Positions 6,341 to 50,748 of a stretch of 64,000 bases of DNA are shown here, in pieces. The stretch's first letter is position 1, and every line of letters begins with the position of its first letter. The stretch lies in the NCBI GenBank assembly GCA_015060765.1, contig SUXW01000005.1:62001-126000 (forward strand), read 5' to 3'. Source of the stretch: Bacteroides sp. GTDB lineage: Bacteria > Bacteroidota > Bacteroidia > Bacteroidales > Bacteroidaceae. The notes beneath the pieces are model-generated. The model ran no database searches, had not been told where the DNA came from, and saw only the letters and a program-made list of their open reading frames with translations. The position numbers and the translations under genes are program-made.

Positions 6341-6348
6341 CACCCAAG

Positions 6349-6442
6349 AAACAGTGGAGAGATTTGAGTAGCTTGCAACCACGGAAAAAAATGCTAAAAT
6401 ACATTGACTTTCTATGTCTTCTACTCTGATGTGTCCCTGTTT
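6349..6442 (+). promoter_or_regulatory. Putative SAM-I/IV-type riboswitch upstream of metK
   Basis: The metK leader can form an outer helix, AAACAG (6349-6354) with CTGTTT (6437-6442). Inside it an arm GTGG/CCAC (6354-6357 with 6379-6382; base 6354 is shared with the outer helix) ends in GCAACCAC, followed by ATGCTAA (6391-6397), and GATG stands near the 3' end. GCAACC and the GCTAA motif are the conserved core of S-box (SAM-I) and SAM-I/IV-like riboswitches, which bind S-adenosylmethionine. The lineage-usual GGCCC/GAAACC half is shortened, so this would be a variant. No intrinsic terminator precedes the ATG at 6474, so control may be translational. Confidence 0.62.
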
Positions 6443-6473: not shown

Positions 6474-7766
6474 ATGGGATATTTATTTACTTCTGAATCG
6501 GTGTCTGAAGGACATCCTGATAAAGTGGCCGATCAAATATCGGATGCTGTACTTGATAAATTGTTGGCTTTTGACCCTAATTCCAAGGTGGCTTGTGAAA
6601 CGCTTGTCACTACGGGACAGGTAGTCATGGCCGGTGAAGTGAAGACCGAAGCTTATGTAGATTTGCAGCGGATAGCACGTGAGGTCATCAACCGTATTGG
6701 ATATACTAAGAGCGAATATATGTTCGAAGGAAATTCTTGTGGAGTATTAAGCGCTATTCATGAACAGAGTGCTGATATTAATCGGGGGGTAGAACGAGAA
6801 GATCCAATGGAACAGGGAGCTGGCGATCAGGGTATGATGTTTGGTTATGCCACTAATGAAACGGAAAACTTCATGCCTTTGTCACTTGACTTGTCGCATA
6901 AGTTGTTGATGGTGTTGGCTGAAATACGTCGTGAAGGAAAGGAAATGACTTATTTGCGCCCCGATGCAAAAAGTCAGGTGACCATTGAATACGATGATAA
7001 CGGTAAACCGGTTCGTATTGATACCATCGTAGTGTCTACCCAGCATGATGAATTTATTTTGCCGGTTGATAATAACAAGGAAGCGCAATTGAAGGCGGAT
7101 GAAGAGATGTTGTCTCAAATCCGAAAAGATGTGATTGAAATATTGATGCCTCGCGTCATAGCTTCTATTCATAATCCGGAAATATTGAAACTTTTCAATG
7201 AGGGAATCATTTATCATGTTAATCCCACAGGTAAATTCGTGATTGGTGGTCCTCATGGTGATACAGGTTTGACCGGTCGTAAAATTATTGTAGATACTTA
7301 TGGAGGAAAAGGAGCTCATGGGGGAGGTGCTTTCTCTGGAAAGGATCCTAGTAAGGTAGACCGTAGTGCCGCTTATGCTGCTCGTCATATTGCCAAGAAT
7401 ATGGTTGCTGCAGGGGTAGCTGATGAAATGCTTGTTCAGGTTTCGTATGCTATTGGGGTAGCACGTCCGGTAAGTATTTATGTTAATACTTATGGCCGTA
7501 GTAATGTGCAACTGACTGATGGTGAAATAGCTGAAAAAATAGGCGAACTTTTTGATCTTCGTCCTAAAGCGATTGAAGAGCGTTTGAAACTTCGTAATCC
7601 TATCTATGAAGAAACTGCTTCGTATGGTCATATGGGACGTGAACCTAAGATGGTAACCAAGACATATGAATCCATGTATCGGGAGACCAAAATAGTAGAG
7701 GTGGAACTCTTTACATGGGAAAAACTGGATTATGTGGACAAGATTAAAGAAGCATTTAACCTTTAA
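6474..7766 (+). CDS. metK: S-adenosylmethionine synthetase MetK
   Basis: MetK makes SAM from methionine and ATP. The 430-residue length is typical for Bacteroidales. Motifs include [18 protein letters not shown] at the N-terminus, [12 protein letters not shown], and the [20 protein letters not shown] loop. The start is an ATG preceded by an AT-rich leader with no Shine-Dalgarno sequence. The upstream leader resembles a SAM riboswitch, which would be direct product feedback. It is followed three bases later by a LOG-family gene. Confidence 0.97.
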
Positions 7767-26716: not shown

Positions 26717-28588
26717 TTATCTGCCAAGTAAAACTAACAAGACATTGATGTCGCTTGGAGATATACCCGGTATTCTACTGGCTTGCGCCAACGTCTCCGG
26801 ATCAATCTTAACCAACTTTTGTCGGGCTTCCGTAGAAAGGGAATTCAACGAATTGTAGTCGAATTTCCCTTTGATGCGGATGCTTTCCAAACGATGAATC
26901 TTGTCGGCTATCATCCGTTCGCGGTCGATGTATCCTTGGTACTTGATGAGTACTTCGGCGGCTTCGATGATTTCCTCCTTGCGGTCGGTTATCTTATCCA
27001 GATAAGCTTTGAACGAAGGTATGTATTCAGCAATGCTTGCAATGGTTATTTGCGGACGGATAATCAAATCCATCAGTTTGCATCCGCGAGTAAGGGGAGC
27101 GGTACCCAGTTTTTCCAATGCATCGTTTATCAATGCGGCCTTGATGGAGAAATTCTTGGTGTATTCAATGATTCCTTGTACGGCTTCTCGTTTGCTACAA
27201 AGCATATTGTATCGGTCTTGTTTTACAAGGCCTAATTTGTATGCTTTCTCAGTAAGTCGCATGTCGGCATCATCTTGTCTTAACAGGATGCGATATTCAG
27301 CTCGTGAAGTAAACATGCGGTAGGGTTCGTCCACACCTTTTGTAACCAAATCGTCTATCAGCACTCCGATGTAGGCTTCATCCCGTCCTAATACGAACGG
27401 TTCTCCGCCGTGGCAATTGATGTGAGCGTTGATACCGGCTATGATGCCTTGTCCGCCTGCTTCTTCGTAACCGGTGGTACCATTTACCTGACCGGCCATA
27501 AAGAGGTTCTTTATGGCTTTGGTTTCCAATGTATGTTTCAGTTGGGTAGGATCGAAGTAATCGTATTCAATGGCATATCCCGGTCGATAGATGACCAAAT
27601 CCTTGAAAGCTGGAATCTTCTTCAACGCCTCTATTTGGATATTCATCGGGAGTGAGGAAGAGAATCCATTCAGATATAGTTCGTTGGTCGATTCCCCTTC
27701 CGGTTCCAAGAACAATTGGTGTTGTGGCTTGTCGGGGAAGGTCACGATTTTGGTTTCGATGCTGGGACAATAGCGTGGGCCGATGCTTTGGATTTGTCCG
27801 TTGAAGAGGGGGGATTCTGACAATCCTTGACGTAAGATTTCGTGTGCCTCATCGTTGGTAAAGCAAGTCCAGCATTGTAATTGCTTCAGCTTCCGTGGCT
27901 CGCTGATGAACGAGAAACGATGAAAGTCGTTCTCGCCGTCCTGTGTATCCATGTGTTCGAAATGAACGCTTCTGGCATCGATGCGAACGGGAGTTCCCGT
28001 CTTCATTCTTCCATATTCGATACCGTGTCGGGCGATGGATTCGGTCAGATGATAAGAAGCAGGTTCCGCACAACGTCCTCCAGCTAGCATCTTGGGTCCC
28101 ACGTGCATCAATCCGTTTAGGAATGTACCTGCGGTCAGGATAACACATTTGGCATGGAATGTTACGCCCCAACAAGTGATAACTCCCGTTACCTCACCGT
28201 TTTCTACCAATAGTTCTTCTACGGTATCTTGCCAGATATGTAGGTTGGGGATATTCTCCAGAATTTCTCGCCAGGCCCAGATAAACTTGCCTCGATCGCA
28301 TTGTGCACGTGGGCTCCACATGGCCGGTCCTTTCGAACGGTTCAGCATGCGGAACTGGATAGCGGTTCGGTCGGTTACCAATCCCATGTATCCCCCCAAT
28401 GCATCTATTTCTCTGACGATTTGTCCTTTGGCAATCCCTCCCACGGCAGGGTTGCAACTCATCTGTCCAATTTTGTTCATATCCATGGTAATCAGACAAG
28501 TCTTCGAGCCCAAGTTGGCCGAAGCGGCTGCGGCTTCGCATCCGGCATGTCCGGCACCAATTACAATCACATCGTACTTAAAATCCAT
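26717..28588 (-). CDS. mnmG: tRNA uridine-5-carboxymethylaminomethyl modification enzyme MnmG (GidA)
   Basis: MnmG works with MnmE to modify the wobble uridine of tRNAs. The 623-residue flavoprotein starts YDVIVIGAGHAGCEAAAA (FAD-binding GxGxxG) and has the family blocks SCNPAVGGIAKGQIVREIDA and GQVNGTTGYEEAGGQG, plus a C-terminal helical domain. The ATG at 28588 follows a minus-strand TACTTTTG box at 28611-28618. It heads the mnmG-apt-uvrC cluster. Confidence 0.97.
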   Translation of the reverse strand: MDFKYDVIVIGAGHAGCEAAAASANLGSKTCLITMDMNKIGQMSCNPAVGGIAKGQIVREIDALGGYMGLVTDRTAIQFRMLNRSKGPAMWSPRAQCDRGKFIWAWREILENIPNLHIWQDTVEELLVENGEVTGVITCWGVTFHAKCVILTAGTFLNGLMHVGPKMLAGGRCAEPASYHLTESIARHGIEYGRMKTGTPVRIDARSVHFEHMDTQDGENDFHRFSFISEPRKLKQLQCWTCFTNDEAHEILRQGLSESPLFNGQIQSIGPRYCPSIETKIVTFPDKPQHQLFLEPEGESTNELYLNGFSSSLPMNIQIEALKKIPAFKDLVIYRPGYAIEYDYFDPTQLKHTLETKAIKNLFMAGQVNGTTGYEEAGGQGIIAGINAHINCHGGEPFVLGRDEAYIGVLIDDLVTKGVDEPYRMFTSRAEYRILLRQDDADMRLTEKAYKLGLVKQDRYNMLCSKREAVQGIIEYTKNFSIKAALINDALEKLGTAPLTRGCKLMDLIIRPQITIASIAEYIPSFKAYLDKITDRKEEIIEAAEVLIKYQGYIDRERMIADKIHRLESIRIKGKFDYNSLNSLSTEARQKLVKIDPETLAQASRIPGISPSDINVLLVLLGR

Positions 28589-28610
28589 TGATTCATTTCT
28601 TTTTACCTTG

Positions 28611-28618
28611 CAAAAGTA
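28611..28618 (-). promoter_or_regulatory. -7 promoter element of mnmG
   Basis: The minus strand reads TACTTTTG, 22 bases before the mnmG ATG. The stretch from here to 28725 holds no gene; it has only an AAAAGTAA...TTACTTTT inverted repeat around 28621-28660. Confidence 0.5.
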
Positions 28619-28725
28619 GTAAAAAGTAAGATATGTTCATGTGTAAGGCTTTACTTTTCGTTTTTATTGGTTTAGATTATGTTTCTTTTCCTTGCGCATT
28701 TCTTTTTATTTTCATTTAAAATTCA

Positions 28726-28733
28726 TAGATTTG
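28726..28733 (+). promoter_or_regulatory. -7 promoter element of RNA element A
   Basis: TAGATTTG matches TAnnTTTG. The flanking TTAAA and TTCATAG bases are shared with copy B (TAGTTTTG at 50183-50190). Transcription would begin at about 28740, exactly where the paired 5' arm of the RNA starts. Confidence 0.6.
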
Positions 28734-28739
28734 CGGTGT

Positions 28740-29072
28740 CTTCACGCCGAAACCTCGGCAAGAGGTGGGGCGGTGGGGACAGACATATAGATAATGGCGT
28801 ATTCATACGCTTTGGTTTTGACCGTTCGAAGTCCTGAGAAAATTTCAATGCTGTCAAGAACAAAGCAACGAAGACGTACGTTGGGTATGTTTATAAGCAG
28901 ACCCGATTACACTTGTCAGCCCATGGTGTATCCGCTCCATAGGGCAATGAGTGTATAAGGTTACATTATATTCATATCGGCGTGAAGTTCGGAGTTGCTC
29001 GTTTCGACAGCATGGGCAATTCTCAGGCGCCTTGAACGGTGAAGCGAGCGACGAGTGGGCTTCACGTTTTTT
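28740..29072 (+). ncRNA. Structured RNA element A (unrecognised, copy 1 of 2)
   Basis: About 333 bases without a plausible ORF, similar over their whole length to 50197-50533. Helices seen by eye: 5' arm CTTCACGCCGA (28740-28750) with TCGGCGTGAAG (28977-28987); hairpin ACCTC/GAGGT just inside; GCGTAT/ATACGC; TTTGGTTTTGAC with GTCAAGAACAAA; and a hairpin with ACACTT/GAGTGT and GCCC/GGGC. The 3' domain pairs GTTGCTCG (28994-29001) with CGAGCGAC (29045-29052) and can pair CGTGAAG with CTTCACG (29060-29066) before six T. Differences from copy B keep these helices. It precedes a small ORF and a fimbrillin-like lipoprotein. I do not know its family or function; a regulatory leader or a free-standing RNA are both possible. 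Confidence 0.72.
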
Positions 29073-29103
29073 ATTTATATGTAATTGATTATCTTTTGTT
29101 TAT

Positions 29104-29128
29104 CTTCGCGATTCGGAGCCCGTCGTAC
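29104..29128 (+). promoter_or_regulatory. Conserved leader hairpin before small ORF A
   Basis: CTTCG (29104-29108) can pair with CGGAG (29114-29118), followed by the sequence GAGCCCGTCGTAC shared with copy B, where the pair is CTTCG/CGAAG. TATCTTCG at 29101 also resembles a -7 box, so it could be a second promoter instead. Confidence 0.4.
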
Positions 29129-29144
29129 TTTAAGTTATGTAATT

Positions 29145-29267
29145 ATGAAGAAAGTAGAATTTATCAAGTATGATGCTCCCGAAGTGGAAATCATTGAAGT
29201 GGAAGTGGAAAAAGGATTTGCGGCAAGTGGTAATGTTGAAGATCCTAATTATGGTGGTGGTGTTTAA
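29145..29267 (+). CDS. Small conserved VEKGFAAS peptide, cassette A
   Basis: A 40-residue acidic peptide starting MKKVEFIKYDAPEVEII and containing VEKGFAASGN, with a glycine-rich end (NYGGGV). Over 22 residues it matches 17 positions of the peptide encoded at 50605-50748. It has no signal peptide or membrane segment. The ATG at 29145 is chosen because the upstream part of the open frame lies in the conserved leader. It ends 18 bases before the lipoprotein ATG, so it is co-transcribed and may be translationally coupled. Function unknown; it could be a leader peptide or a peptide precursor. Confidence 0.65.
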   Translation: MKKVEFIKYDAPEVEIIEVEVEKGFAASGNVEDPNYGGGV

Positions 29268-29285
29268 TTGCTAAAAGGAATCATT

Positions 29286-31370
29286 ATGAAACGTTTCTCA
29301 TGGTTGTACATTCTACTGATGTTGGTAGGATGTACAGAATCGTCTATTGAAGACAACTCTATTATAGCAACCGGAGTAGAAGAATTTTATGCAACGATAG
29401 AAGGTACGAATGCACGCACTTATGTAGACGAGCAAATCCGTATGCGTTGGCATGCCGAAGACCGTATCACCATTTTCAAGAAAGAAACCTACAATCGTGA
29501 ATTTGAGTTTACAGGGAAGACAGGCGCCAATGCCGGTGGCTTCAATCAAGTGTCGGTCGATGATGAATTCTTTTCTAGTTATAAGGTCGATGCCAATTAT
29601 GCTGTTTATCCTCATTCGGCAGATACAGAATTAGATGAAACGGATTGTTTCTTTACACTTAATATGCCAGCCGAACAGACTTATGCAGAAAAGTCTTTCG
29701 GATTGAATGCCAATACCATGGTAGCGGTATCCGAATCGGGCAATTTGATGTTCAAGAATGTAGGTTGCTACTTACGTGTTCGTCTATATGGGGAGAATGC
29801 AAGTATATCTTCCGTTACATTAACGACCAAAGGAACCGAAGCTATTGCTGGTGAGGCAAAGGTTACTCCATCAATGGACGGTAACCCTACTTGCGAAATG
29901 ACAGGTATAGGTAAGAGTATAAGCCTGACATGTGATACTCCCGTCACCATCAGTTCGAATGCCGATGCACCTACCGACTTTTGGATTGTTGTACCTCCCG
30001 TTACATTGGCTAGCGGATTTACGGTTACGATAGAAAATAGTGATGGAAAGACGCAAACATACGATGTTAATCAATCCTTTACTTTTGAACGTAACAAGTA
30101 TTACGATATGGTCAGAGAAGTAGAGATAGAAAATATTCCGTTTATTCATGTGGCACAAGCAGGTACATTGTCTTCTCTAATTTCCGACGAAGATAAATAT
30201 ACAATCACTTCGTTGAAATTATCTGGGGAATTAAATGGCACGGACATTAAGTTTATTCGTGAAAATATGGCTGGTTGTTTTATAAGTTATAATACAGAAA
30301 GTTATGGTGCATTGAAAATCCTTGATTTAAGTGATGCTTCTATCGTGGAAGGAGGAGAAGCGTATTATAGTTCGTATACAACCGAGAATAATGTATTAGG
30401 AAATAGAATGTTTAATCGAAGTGCTACTCTTGAAAGTGTAATACTTCCGAAAAATATTACAACAATTGAAAGTTATGCTTTTTCTTATTGTTCAAATTTA
30501 AGTTGCGTAACTATTTTTGAGAATGTAAAATCTATTGGAGCAGATGCTTTTTTATATAGTAACTTAAGTGAAATAACTATTCCAGAAAGTGTTGAAACTA
30601 TAGAATCTGGTGCCTTTAACATGTGTAATTTAAGTGAAATAACTATTCCAGAAGGTGTTAAGACTATTGGAGATAATGCTTTTTATAATATTGAAAATTT
30701 AAAATCAGTATCCATTCCCCAAAGTGTAACCAGCATAGGACGTGAAGCTTTTGGCTATCATCGTGGAATAGATGTTTATATTAAAGATTTACGAAAATTC
30801 TTGGAAGCTTGCATTTCTGAAAATATAATTTTTACACCAAAAAATGATGGGGTTTATTATAGATTATTCCTGAATAATGTAGAGGTGAAAGATTTGATAA
30901 TACCAGAAGGTGTAACAAGAATACCCGTTTTGGCCACATGTTCAAGTTTGACATCCGTAACAGTTTCAGAAGGTGTTGATTGCAATTATTATATGGAGAT
31001 TTTTTATGATTGTATAAACTTGAAACAAGTAAATTTTCCTAATAGTTGTCAAGTAATTCCACCTGTAGCATTTGCAAAGAGTGGATTAACAACTATGATT
31101 ATAGGCAATAATGTTACTACTATTTGGTATGGAGCATTCTCGTATTGCCCGCTAAATGCATTTTATAGTTATACTCAAACGCCTCCTGCTATTGATGTTG
31201 CAACAGGTGTTCCTGATACAACTATAAACAATATGCCATCAGAAATAAGGTATTCTTTTGGGGGTGTGAACAAAGAAAATGCAACCCTTTATGTTCCTGT
31301 TGGATGTAAAACTGCATACGAAGCAAGTGATTGGGCAAATTATTTTGGAACAATTGTTGAGATGAATTAA
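29286..31370 (+). CDS. Fimbrillin-like lipoprotein with BspA-type leucine-rich repeats
   Basis: The 694-residue protein has a lipoprotein signal with lipobox LVGC (Cys16). Residues to about 290 look like the fimbrillin/Mfa-like N-terminal domain (NARTYVDEQIRMRWHAEDRI; FWIVVPPVTLASGFTVTI). From about 360 onward come BspA-type leucine-rich repeats of the form LSEITIPESVETIESGAF, ending in LYVPVGCKTAYEASDW. BspA repeats mediate binding to host proteins or other bacteria, so this is a probable cell-surface adhesin. It is the effector gene of cassette A; the LRR part is more AT-rich than its N-terminal part. The start is ATG 29286 rather than the in-frame TTG at 29268. Confidence 0.82.
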   Translation: MKRFSWLYILLMLVGCTESSIEDNSIIATGVEEFYATIEGTNARTYVDEQIRMRWHAEDRITIFKKETYNREFEFTGKTGANAGGFNQVSVDDEFFSSYKVDANYAVYPHSADTELDETDCFFTLNMPAEQTYAEKSFGLNANTMVAVSESGNLMFKNVGCYLRVRLYGENASISSVTLTTKGTEAIAGEAKVTPSMDGNPTCEMTGIGKSISLTCDTPVTISSNADAPTDFWIVVPPVTLASGFTVTIENSDGKTQTYDVNQSFTFERNKYYDMVREVEIENIPFIHVAQAGTLSSLISDEDKYTITSLKLSGELNGTDIKFIRENMAGCFISYNTESYGALKILDLSDASIVEGGEAYYSSYTTENNVLGNRMFNRSATLESVILPKNITTIESYAFSYCSNLSCVTIFENVKSIGADAFLYSNLSEITIPESVETIESGAFNMCNLSEITIPEGVKTIGDNAFYNIENLKSVSIPQSVTSIGREAFGYHRGIDVYIKDLRKFLEACISENIIFTPKNDGVYYRLFLNNVEVKDLIIPEGVTRIPVLATCSSLTSVTVSEGVDCNYYMEIFYDCINLKQVNFPNSCQVIPPVAFAKSGLTTMIIGNNVTTIWYGAFSYCPLNAFYSYTQTPPAIDVATGVPDTTINNMPSEIRYSFGGVNKENATLYVPVGCKTAYEASDWANYFGTIVEMN

Positions 31371-31680: not shown

Positions 31681-31756
31681 AATAGATTCTCGAGAACTGT
31701 TAACTCCTACATTCTTTTAAATGACAGTTGAAGTATGTATGGAGATAAGAAAAAAA

Positions 31757-31783
31757 CAAAGTGAAGAGGCATACTTCACTTTG
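31757..31783 (-). terminator. Terminator-like hairpin on the minus strand
   Basis: CAAAGTGAAG (31757-31766) pairs with CTTCACTTTG (31774-31783); read on the minus strand it is followed by seven T. The nearest minus-strand gene (ybeY) ends 500 bases upstream of it. Confidence 0.45.
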
Positions 31784-31855: not shown

Positions 31856-31904
31856 CAAAGCTTTGAAGCACCCATCAAAAGGTGAATCAAAGCTTTGTTT
31901 TTTT
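31856..31904 (+). terminator. Putative terminator after cassette A
   Basis: CAAAGCTTTGA (31856-31866) and TCAAAGCTTTG (31887-31897) are complementary, enclose a 20-base loop and are followed by seven T. Each arm is itself palindromic. Confidence 0.5.
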
Positions 31905-31945
31905 CTATCCTCCTTACTACTTACAACTTTAAGTTTCAAAAAATT

Positions 31946-50182: not shown

Positions 50183-50190
50183 TAGTTTTG
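50183..50190 (+). promoter_or_regulatory. -7 promoter element of RNA element B
   Basis: TAGTTTTG matches TAnnTTTG and corresponds to TAGATTTG before element A. Transcription would begin at about 50197. Confidence 0.6.
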
Positions 50191-50196
50191 CAATGT

Positions 50197-50533
50197 CTTC
50201 ATGCCGACACTTCTTCATGAAGTGCTGGGTGGTGGGGACAGACATATAGATAATGGCGTATTCTTACGCTTTGGTTTTGACTACTCGAAGTCCTGAGAAA
50301 ACTTTCAATCAATGTCAAGAACAAAGCAACGAAGACGCACGTTGGGTATGTTTATAGACAACCTAAGTTATGCTTGTTAGCCGAAGGTGTATTTATGCCA
50401 TAGGCAATAAGTGTATATAGGTGTAATCTATACGTATCGGCGTGAAGTTCGGAGTTGCTCGTTTCGACATTGATGGGCAATTCTCAGGCGCCTTGAGTAG
50501 TGGAGCGAGCGATGAGTGGGCTTCACGTTTTTT
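50197..50533 (+). ncRNA. Structured RNA element B (unrecognised, copy 2 of 2)
   Basis: This is the second copy of the element at 28740-29072. The 5' arm is CTTCATGCCGA (50197-50207), pairing with TCGGCGTGAAG (50437-50447) with a G-U in place of a G-C. The next hairpin is CACTTC/GAAGTG where copy A has ACCTC/GAGGT: both arms have changed and pairing is kept. TTTGGTTTTGAC/GTCAAGAACAAA and GCGTA/TACGC are retained. The 3' domain pairs GTTGCTCG (50454-50461) with CGAGCGAT (50506-50513), and CTTCACG (50521-50527) precedes six T. The internal variable hairpin keeps GCC/GGC. It precedes small ORF B and a second fimbrillin-like lipoprotein. Confidence 0.72.
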
Positions 50534-50564: not shown

Positions 50565-50587
50565 CTTCGATGCGAAGCCCGTCGTAC
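50565..50587 (+). promoter_or_regulatory. Conserved leader hairpin before small ORF B
   Basis: CTTCG (50565-50569) pairs with CGAAG (50573-50577), followed by CCCGTCGTAC, matching the same position in cassette A. TAACTTCG at 50562-50569 may alternatively be a -7 box. Confidence 0.4.
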
Positions 50588-50604: not shown

Positions 50605-50748
50605 ATGGTTATGTTTGAATTGTTGAATGCAGAGGCTATGTACGAAGCTCCGCTTGTAGAAATGATTGAAGTCCAAGTAGAAAAAGGTTTTGCGGCCTCG
50701 AACAATGAGGGAGGACTGGAAGATTATGGAAATAATGGTTCAATTTAA
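50605..50748 (+). CDS. Small conserved VEKGFAAS peptide, cassette B
   Basis: A 47-residue acidic peptide whose core YEAPLVEMIEVQVEKGFAAS parallels the cassette A peptide; 17 of 22 aligned core residues are identical. The N-terminus (MVMFELLNAEAM) differs and the C-terminus is Gly/Asn-rich (GGLEDYGNNGSI). No signal peptide or membrane segment is visible. Starts at 50605 and 50611 are both possible. It ends 16 bases before the lipoprotein ATG. Function unknown. Confidence 0.65.
   Translation: MVMFELLNAEAMYEAPLVEMIEVQVEKGFAASNNEGGLEDYGNNGSI

Follow-up and report, generated by a model that had tools for sequence, protein, structure and literature searches.

Two closely similar elements lie in the window, which is the whole 64,000-nt stretch of Bacteroides sp. 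DNA analysed here (contig SUXW01000005.1, positions 62,001 to 126,000). Copy A extends from the start of its 5' strand at 28740 to the end of its U-run at 29072 and copy B from 50197 to 50533, exactly where a first-pass annotation made from the letters alone had placed them. The close similarity proposed there is borne out by 85% identity of copy B to copy A across query positions 3-346. Both copies also stand in the order described there: a TAnnTTTG motif, the element, a U-run, a conserved leader, a VEKGFAAS micro-ORF and a gene for a lipoprotein-type protein. The hairpin pairs that it listed as differing between the copies, ACCTC/GAGGT in A and CACTTC/GAAGTG in B, are found in the sequence. 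Two kinds of feature absent from that annotation, alternative pairings of the terminator and a hairpin 3' of it, are included in the following lists.

Copy A:
28726..28733, + strand: promoter -7 element TAGATTTG (TAnnTTTG), by motif
28740..28750, + strand: 5' strand CTTCACGCCGA; possible partner is the terminator lower 5' arm or a local G-rich strand
28752..28766, + strand: 5' hairpin with stem ACCTC/GAGGT, read from the sequence and present in computed folds
28807..28822, + strand: strand 1 ACGCTTTGGTTTTGAC, the 5' side of hairpin 1:2 (sequence, folds)
28823..28852, + strand: loop of hairpin 1:2, with outer-helix CGTTC, kissing segment and spacer segment
28833-28840, + strand: kissing segment CCTGAGAA within the loop of hairpin 1:2
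28853..28870, + strand: strand 2 GTCAAGAACAAAGCAACG, which has strand 1 or strand 3 as possible pairing partner
28977..28987, + strand: terminator lower 5' arm TCGGCGTGAAG (sequence, folds)
28993..29008, + strand: strand 3 AGTTGCTCGTTTCGAC, the terminator upper 5' arm (sequence, folds)
29009..29038, + strand: terminator loop, with spacer partner AGCAT and outer-helix partner GAACG
in 29014-29027, + strand: kissing partner TTCTCAGG, in the terminator loop
29039..29052, + strand: strand 4 GTGAAGCGAGCGAC, the terminator upper 3' arm (sequence, folds)
29057..29072, + strand: terminator lower 3' arm and U-run (alignment, folds)
29108..29126, + strand: post-terminator hairpin, whose loop TCGGAGCCC complements the terminator 3' arm over 8 bp (row L001)
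29145..29267, + strand: VEKGFAAS micro-ORF, 40 aa
29286..31370, + strand: downstream gene, lipoprotein-type, with a weak fimbrillin-like match and BspA-type LRR repeats

Copy B:
50183..50190, + strand: promoter -7 element TAGTTTTG, by motif
50197..50207, + strand: 5' strand CTTCATGCCGA
50266..50281, + strand: strand 1 (sequence, folds)
50282..50313, + strand: loop of hairpin 1:2, with outer-helix TACTC, kissing segment (50292-50299) and spacer
50314..50331, + strand: strand 2 (sequence, folds)
50437..50447, + strand: terminator lower 5' arm (sequence, folds)
50453..50468, + strand: strand 3 (sequence, folds)
50469..50499, + strand: terminator loop, with spacer partner ATTGAT, kissing partner in 50475-50488 and outer-helix partner GAGTA
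50500..50513, + strand: strand 4 (sequence, folds)
50518..50533, + strand: terminator lower 3' arm and U-run (sequence, folds)
50568..50584, + strand: post-terminator hairpin with CGATG/CGTCG stem and CGAAGCC loop, matching the terminator 3' arm over 7 bp (row L002)
50605..50748, + strand: VEKGFAAS micro-ORF, 47 aa
50765..52528, + strand: downstream gene, lipoprotein-type by its N-terminus, no Pfam fimbrillin match

The description of the downstream proteins as fimbrillin-like applies weakly to the first and not to the second. Protein A matches Mfa_like_1 at 25.1 bits, slightly below the Pfam cut-off of 27, and also contains leucine-rich repeats of the BspA type. For protein B, Pfam gives no fimbrillin match at E 0.01, and its sole match is a weak one to Lcl_C. 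Direct repeats spaced 66 nt (30493-30683) lie where the copy A protein gene encodes the BspA-type repeats. Downstream of this gene is an inverted repeat with 50-nt arms that are 70% complementary (31712-31761 / 31893-31942).

The stretches 28740-29072 and 50197-50533 are two copies of one structured RNA that has no named family, as had been supposed when the element was first noticed. At the element, no Rfam 15 family scores at or above gathering, whether in the window or in 16 relatives, and a relaxed scan of 28500-29300 gives two chance-level matches only. The window matches above gathering are to tRNA and SAM-II, both located elsewhere; the SAM-II riboswitch (6348-6407, + strand, 59.4 bits) is upstream of an ORF at 6474-7766. 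Bacteroides-1 RNA (RF01694) is likewise an unexplained Bacteroides RNA but differs in having 82 positions. It has no match at the element; of the four genomes searched, G010 and G000 contain matches to it in other places, and G004 and G030 contain none. A 2017 list is said to hold 224 candidate RNAs. Among the literature matches listed, none was recognised as this element from the opening of its abstract. Fragments of the element may be among the 3161 candidate structured RNAs from human microbiomes that are mentioned in an excerpt of PMC8040213.

Relatives of the element are widespread in the Bacteroidaceae. Searches with blastn find them in 19 of 60 genomes, the window's own included, all in a single genus, and an iterated profile search yields full-length elements of approximately 300-340 nt. 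A pattern scan of species genomes returned at least 118 stretches. Among the 80 listed, most carry Bacteroidales names, including Bacteroides, Phocaeicola, Prevotella, Segatella, Leyella, Parabacteroides, Mediterranea, Muribaculaceae, Paludibacteraceae and Tidjanibacter; L116 bears the title Clostridium, and L119 only 'uncultured bacterium'. Of 140 full-length elements, 21 without an anchor within three mismatches were dropped, and removal of four near-duplicates reduced the remaining 119 to 115. A diversity filter passed 100 of these, and the first 90 were used to build a covariance model, R1, which represents the 3' half of the element in 111 positions.

The search of other Bacteroidales genomes with such a model, which the first-pass annotation had proposed, finds matches in many Bacteroidaceae and in the wider order. 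R1 matches occur in at least 88 of 149 Bacteroidaceae genomes, representing 15 of 16 genera with a maximum of at least 16 per genome. When the order Bacteroidales is sampled, at least 41 of 246 genomes have them. Across 296 genomes drawn from the phylum, the only matches are in the window's own genome. These genome counts are lower bounds obtained with strict filters, with 25 (Bacteroidaceae), 15 (order) and 12 (phylum) candidates scored per genome.

The window's own genome has eight R1 matches. Four of them (A, B and the ones on L179 and L182) are followed by a VEKGF-type micro-ORF and then by a gene with a lipoprotein-type N-terminus, in a neighbour check that left out the copy in L181. On two contigs, copies on opposite strands are only about 5 kb apart (G484:C14, 46069 + and 51384 -; G573:C13, 178503 - and 183904 +). 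An origin from phages or plasmids was considered and rejected, as blastn against 'phages' and 'plasmids' gave no match; two IMG/VR contigs carry the motif. These contigs (L172 and L173), which bear the element, may be phage or host DNA either way.

A promoter motif marks the 5' end of the element. TAnnTTTG is present in the 65 nt around this end in 120 of 136 elements, and in 103 of them it falls inside one 12-nt span, compared to a background of 87 in 2855 windows of 65 nt. The RNA should therefore begin at its 5' helix. Among the 84 of 100 loci with a TAnnTTTG anchor, a complement of at least 8 bp to the 5' strand is present in the terminator lower 5' arm in only 47 (score z 7.6) and in a local G-rich strand in 31 (z 8.9), relatedness being uncontrolled in both counts. 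A promoter of the downstream gene's own, between the U-run and the following hairpin, was rejected on inspection by eye only.

At its 3' end the element carries an intrinsic terminator located before the gene, with hairpin arms and U-run evident in the 90-sequence alignment. In the 91 of 100 loci with recognisable terminator arms, strands 3 and 4 keep 7.99 of 8 standard pairs even though strand 4 varies, a value uncontrolled for relatedness. Minimum-energy folds of the growing transcript, which ignore pseudoknots, contain hairpin 1:2 in 99 of 100 loci once strand 2 is complete. Pairing of strand 2 with strand 3 is predicted in 68 of the 100 when strand 3 has been made, and in 90 when the U-run is reached. 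Forcing hairpin 1:2 costs a mean of 6.7 kcal/mol (0 to 16.3; 91 loci). For copies A and B, the minimum-energy fold is one without the terminator, and the long terminator hairpin is predicted when 1:2 is forced.

At the U-run, the minimum-energy folds of 2 out of 91 loci contain the large terminator's lower stem, and those of 42 do so with 1:2 forced. A small hairpin within strand 4 (at least 5 pairs) appears in 23 and 43 of these folds, respectively. This small hairpin could itself terminate transcription, also in the state in which strands 2 and 3 are paired. As a general terminator it was rejected, with 6.12 of 7 pairs versus 5.84 when arms are swapped; the class seen most often has an A.C mismatch in it. 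The large terminator is preferred because folds of divergent members (see below), by eye, lack the small hairpin as a main feature. Given these counts, either state may be the terminating one in part of the loci, and we infer the polarity of the switch from the predicted folds.

These four strands are reminiscent of trp-type attenuation, in which a terminator (3:4) that is compatible with hairpin 1:2 competes with an antiterminator (2:3) upstream of the regulated gene. The element differs from trp-type attenuators in several respects. It has no conserved leader peptide, its hairpin loops also pair with each other, a hairpin complementary to the terminator lies beyond it in many loci, and it precedes many unrelated genes. 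A short ORF over strand 1 that might encode a leader peptide was looked for, and the 70 loci listed have no ATG frame in common. A coding origin was rejected as well, as the distances from strand to strand fall in all three frames (115 loci). The longest open frames in the element have a mean length of 70 aa on the forward strand and 63 aa on the reverse, compared to 51 in shuffles.

The loop of hairpin 1:2 and the loop of the terminator are complementary over three segments: an outer helix, a kissing segment and a spacer helix. This loop-loop pairing can extend into the pairing of strand 2 with strand 3. In the window, the outer helix is CGTTC/GAACG in copy A and TACTC/GAGTA in copy B. The kissing segment of copy A is CCTGAGAA with TTCTCAGG; elsewhere it is TTCGCA with TGCGAA, among others, and its complementarity has a z score of 21.4 relative to swapped partners (115 loci, with relatedness uncontrolled).

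Contrasts between sister loci, which control relatedness in part, reveal very strong compensatory change. In 45 disjoint sister pairs, 109 cells of the outer helix in which both bases changed keep their pairing and one is broken on both sides; one-sided changes keep the pair in 5 cells and break it in 10. Sliding the register by one base leaves 4 kept, 60 both broken and 91 one-sided broken, and outer-helix cells are paired in 98% of cases in register versus 29-33% when slid. The spacer helix behaves similarly across 57 sister pairs, with 97 double-changed cells kept and 4 both broken, and with one-sided changes kept in 9 and broken in 10. When the spacer register is slid by 3, 2 and 1, the numbers kept are 7, 4 and 12 and those both broken are 40, 44 and 41; at a slide of 3, another 105 are broken on one side. 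The proposal that differences between the two copies preserve base pairing is upheld by these contrasts. Homologues across many genomes with compensatory change also bear out its corollary, that this is a selected RNA and a chance repeat is unlikely. An alternative pairing that would exclude the terminator, as expected of an attenuator, is evident at the level of sequence only.

Elements found in several copies per genome might instead be mobile or repeated DNA with no function as RNA, and one degenerate remnant in the window's own genome could be taken to fit this idea. This remnant (L003, contig C4, approximately 1500-1569, - strand) is a lone strand 1-2 hairpin, with the rest of the element absent. 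However, double changes that preserve pairs in a fixed register contradict such an explanation, as do lengths that vary without regard to frame and the presence of a promoter motif in front and a gene behind. We consider it scarcely credible.

The divergent members of the class keep the predicted alternative pairings with different letters. This set of 22 comprises 20 low-scoring matches to the model and two divergent copies from the window's own genome, and their strand 3 has only 8-14 of 18 letters in common with the canonical strand 3. When strand 3 and its loop are compared to the 265 nt upstream, the best duplex is lower in energy than in all 50 dinucleotide shuffles for 20 of 22, a test of the strand 2:3 duplex that accepted a partner anywhere in these 265 nt. 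In 19 of 22, hairpin 1:2 is built from 10 or more enclosing pairs (mean z -2.20). The terminator region has a mean z of -3.87 and in 10 of 22 lies lower than every shuffle. In minimum-energy folds judged by eye, the upper stem of the terminator is found in 21 of 22 and both upper and lower stems in 18 of 22. The pairing of strands 3 and 4 alone is not significant for individual loci, as just 2 of 22 lie lower than every one of 100 shuffles, but is so for the group, with a mean of -20.5 versus -14.1 with partners swapped. The fixed segment used in this group test missed strand 2 in some loci, including L182 and L183, and therefore only the means with swapped partners are used.

In many loci a further hairpin is found beyond the terminator, mostly 25-50 nt past the U-run, with stem letters that vary freely. 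Its loop matches the 3' arm of the terminator in the same locus over at least 6 bp in 72 of the 97 loci (of 100) that have enough downstream sequence, and 25 of the 97 have no such match. Relatedness is uncontrolled in this test. Swapping arms among loci gives 49 matches (maximum 57 in 40 runs), which is high because terminator arms are alike among loci, and shuffling the region gives 34 (maximum 42 in 20 runs). This candidate latch is 3' of the terminator and therefore cannot itself decide whether termination occurs there. To our knowledge, complementary loops in two hairpins together with a latch after the terminator are unusual for an attenuator.

From these pairings we favor the interpretation that the element is probably a cis-acting leader RNA of approximately 330 nt that has no leader peptide and functions as a bistable transcription attenuator. 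Its synthesis would start just 3' of TAnnTTTG. Full pairing of the loops (approximately 20 bp) should be incompatible with both hairpin stems because it would keep the ends of each loop far apart, such that the two stems should not both persist alongside it and two states would exist. In the OFF state, the local hairpins would form, the terminator would be made and a short RNA would be released. In the ON state, the long-range duplex would occupy strand 3 and the terminator loop, blocking the terminator and allowing the operon to be transcribed. The hairpin downstream may then act as a latch in the read-through RNA, holding the free 3' arm of the terminator and maintaining the long-duplex state.

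The outcome would be decided by timing in the interval between synthesis of strand 3 and strand 4. Since hairpin 1:2 would form first and need to be displaced before strand 4 appears, this decision should depend on the speed or pausing of RNA polymerase or on a factor that binds one of the hairpins.

The same architecture might be read as a small RNA, approximately 330 nt long, that acts in trans and whose neighboring gene is incidental. A promoter motif and terminator of its own and several copies per genome are what such an RNA would have. However, the gene start is close, a median of 75 nt beyond the U-run and at most 130 nt away in 96 of 119 cases. Furthermore, the loop of the post-terminator hairpin fits the terminator of its own locus better than those of other loci, a match that is meaningful only in read-through RNA. 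A trans-acting function is thus improbable. The FopS sRNAs of B. thetaiotaomicron are described in excerpts of PMC11697453 as trans-acting RNAs of approximately 65-70 nt with a single-stranded 5' seed. As far as those excerpts go, they resemble the element in forming a multi-copy Bacteroidaceae RNA family with an intrinsic terminator; the aligned elements, at approximately 300-340 nt, do not share the combination of 65-70 nt length, 5' seed and terminator.

The genes located downstream of this probable attenuator are diverse. A first gene was found for 129 of the 140 full-length elements, and 10 of the 140 had less than 400 nt of downstream sequence. Removal of short frames and near-duplicates reduced the 129 first genes to 119, and four (L173, L089, L038 and L075) were excluded by hand from the protein tally, which covers 115. 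Pfam matches for these 115 comprise 70 families, and the top family, BspA-type repeats, accounts for only 5. Others are MmeI-type methylase (4), fimbrillin (3), and DUF4007, LytTR and PAPS reductase (2 each). A single scan of ten proteins identified NusG (UpxY-like), protein kinase, VWA and EcoRI methylase domains. The PADLOC models SspB, BrxP, DndC and methyltransferases have 1-3 members each, where only the family names are matched and a function in defence is putative. A crude lipobox test is positive for 29 of 119 first genes, compared to 10.2% of 323 other long frames, and for 23.3% of the 90 first genes of at least 200 aa.

The cassette of RNA, micro-ORF and fimbrillin-like gene that was first proposed is too narrow a frame for this distribution. 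A VEKGF-type micro-ORF lies within 450 nt of the element in only 7 of 140 full-length elements, and the element is a Bacteroidales RNA class rather than a fimbrillin cassette. Because first genes are highly diverse and these micro-ORFs are few, it looks, from its neighbors, like a general leader of accessory genes, among which surface and defence functions are prominent and others are present. The mixed regulon suggests that the switching signal is a cue from general physiology and not the metabolite of a pathway.

Strongly conserved nucleotides and an expression platform based on a terminator are also what might be expected if the attenuator were a riboswitch, in which a small molecule binds to the conserved core. 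A metabolite riboswitch should control genes of one pathway, though, and the 70 Pfam families among the 115 first genes share no common pathway. We find this version doubtful, and its ligand would possibly be a general signaling molecule.

Another reading is that the long-range fold serves as a processive antitermination RNA, binding RNA polymerase (a putative interaction) such that its own terminator and later ones in long accessory operons are read through while the latch keeps the fold intact. The fold is large and conserved, the latch would preserve its active form, and the first genes for UpxY, fimbrillin and members of defence families resemble the targets of known antitermination systems. 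However, local control is already accounted for by the element's own terminator and the strands that compete with it, and we regard this mechanism as rather unlikely. Phage HK022 put is an antitermination RNA, and the element is similar to put and to the Bacillus EAR (epsC) RNA in being a leader RNA with a complex fold. It is unlike both in carrying its own terminator, in having no Rfam match, and in that its action on RNA polymerase is putative. According to excerpts of PMC2864571, EAR occurs upstream of exopolysaccharide genes and has antitermination activity.

Four elements (L020, L021, L040 and L041) precede UpxY-like proteins that are similar to one another as judged by eye, and the NusG domain is confirmed for L020. 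This is a point of likeness to the UpxY/UpxZ control of capsule operons, but that system is based on proteins and most elements precede other genes. The choice of surface structures and defences in gut Bacteroidales is explained mainly by promoter inversion and UpxY/UpxZ proteins. An RNA switch before such genes in 88 of the 149 sampled Bacteroidaceae genomes would add a layer of control that is absent from Rfam 15. Tentatively, a single RNA class spread over the order Bacteroidales, with as many as 16 copies or more in a genome, might give the operons for capsule, fimbriae, lipoproteins and phage defence a shared duplex-exchange switch whose latch keeps the antiterminated fold, possibly acting on RNA polymerase throughout the operon.

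A few elements have unusual 3' ends. Five (L012, L123, L142, L148 and L173) have no proper U-run and carry GAACC in its place, directly after CACGCTT, CACGTCTT or CACGTC. Further on, these elements have GATACCAT together with GTTCCC or GTTACC. What appears, by eye, to be the 3' end of a convergent gene for an HTH-type regulator comes next in L012, L148 and L173.
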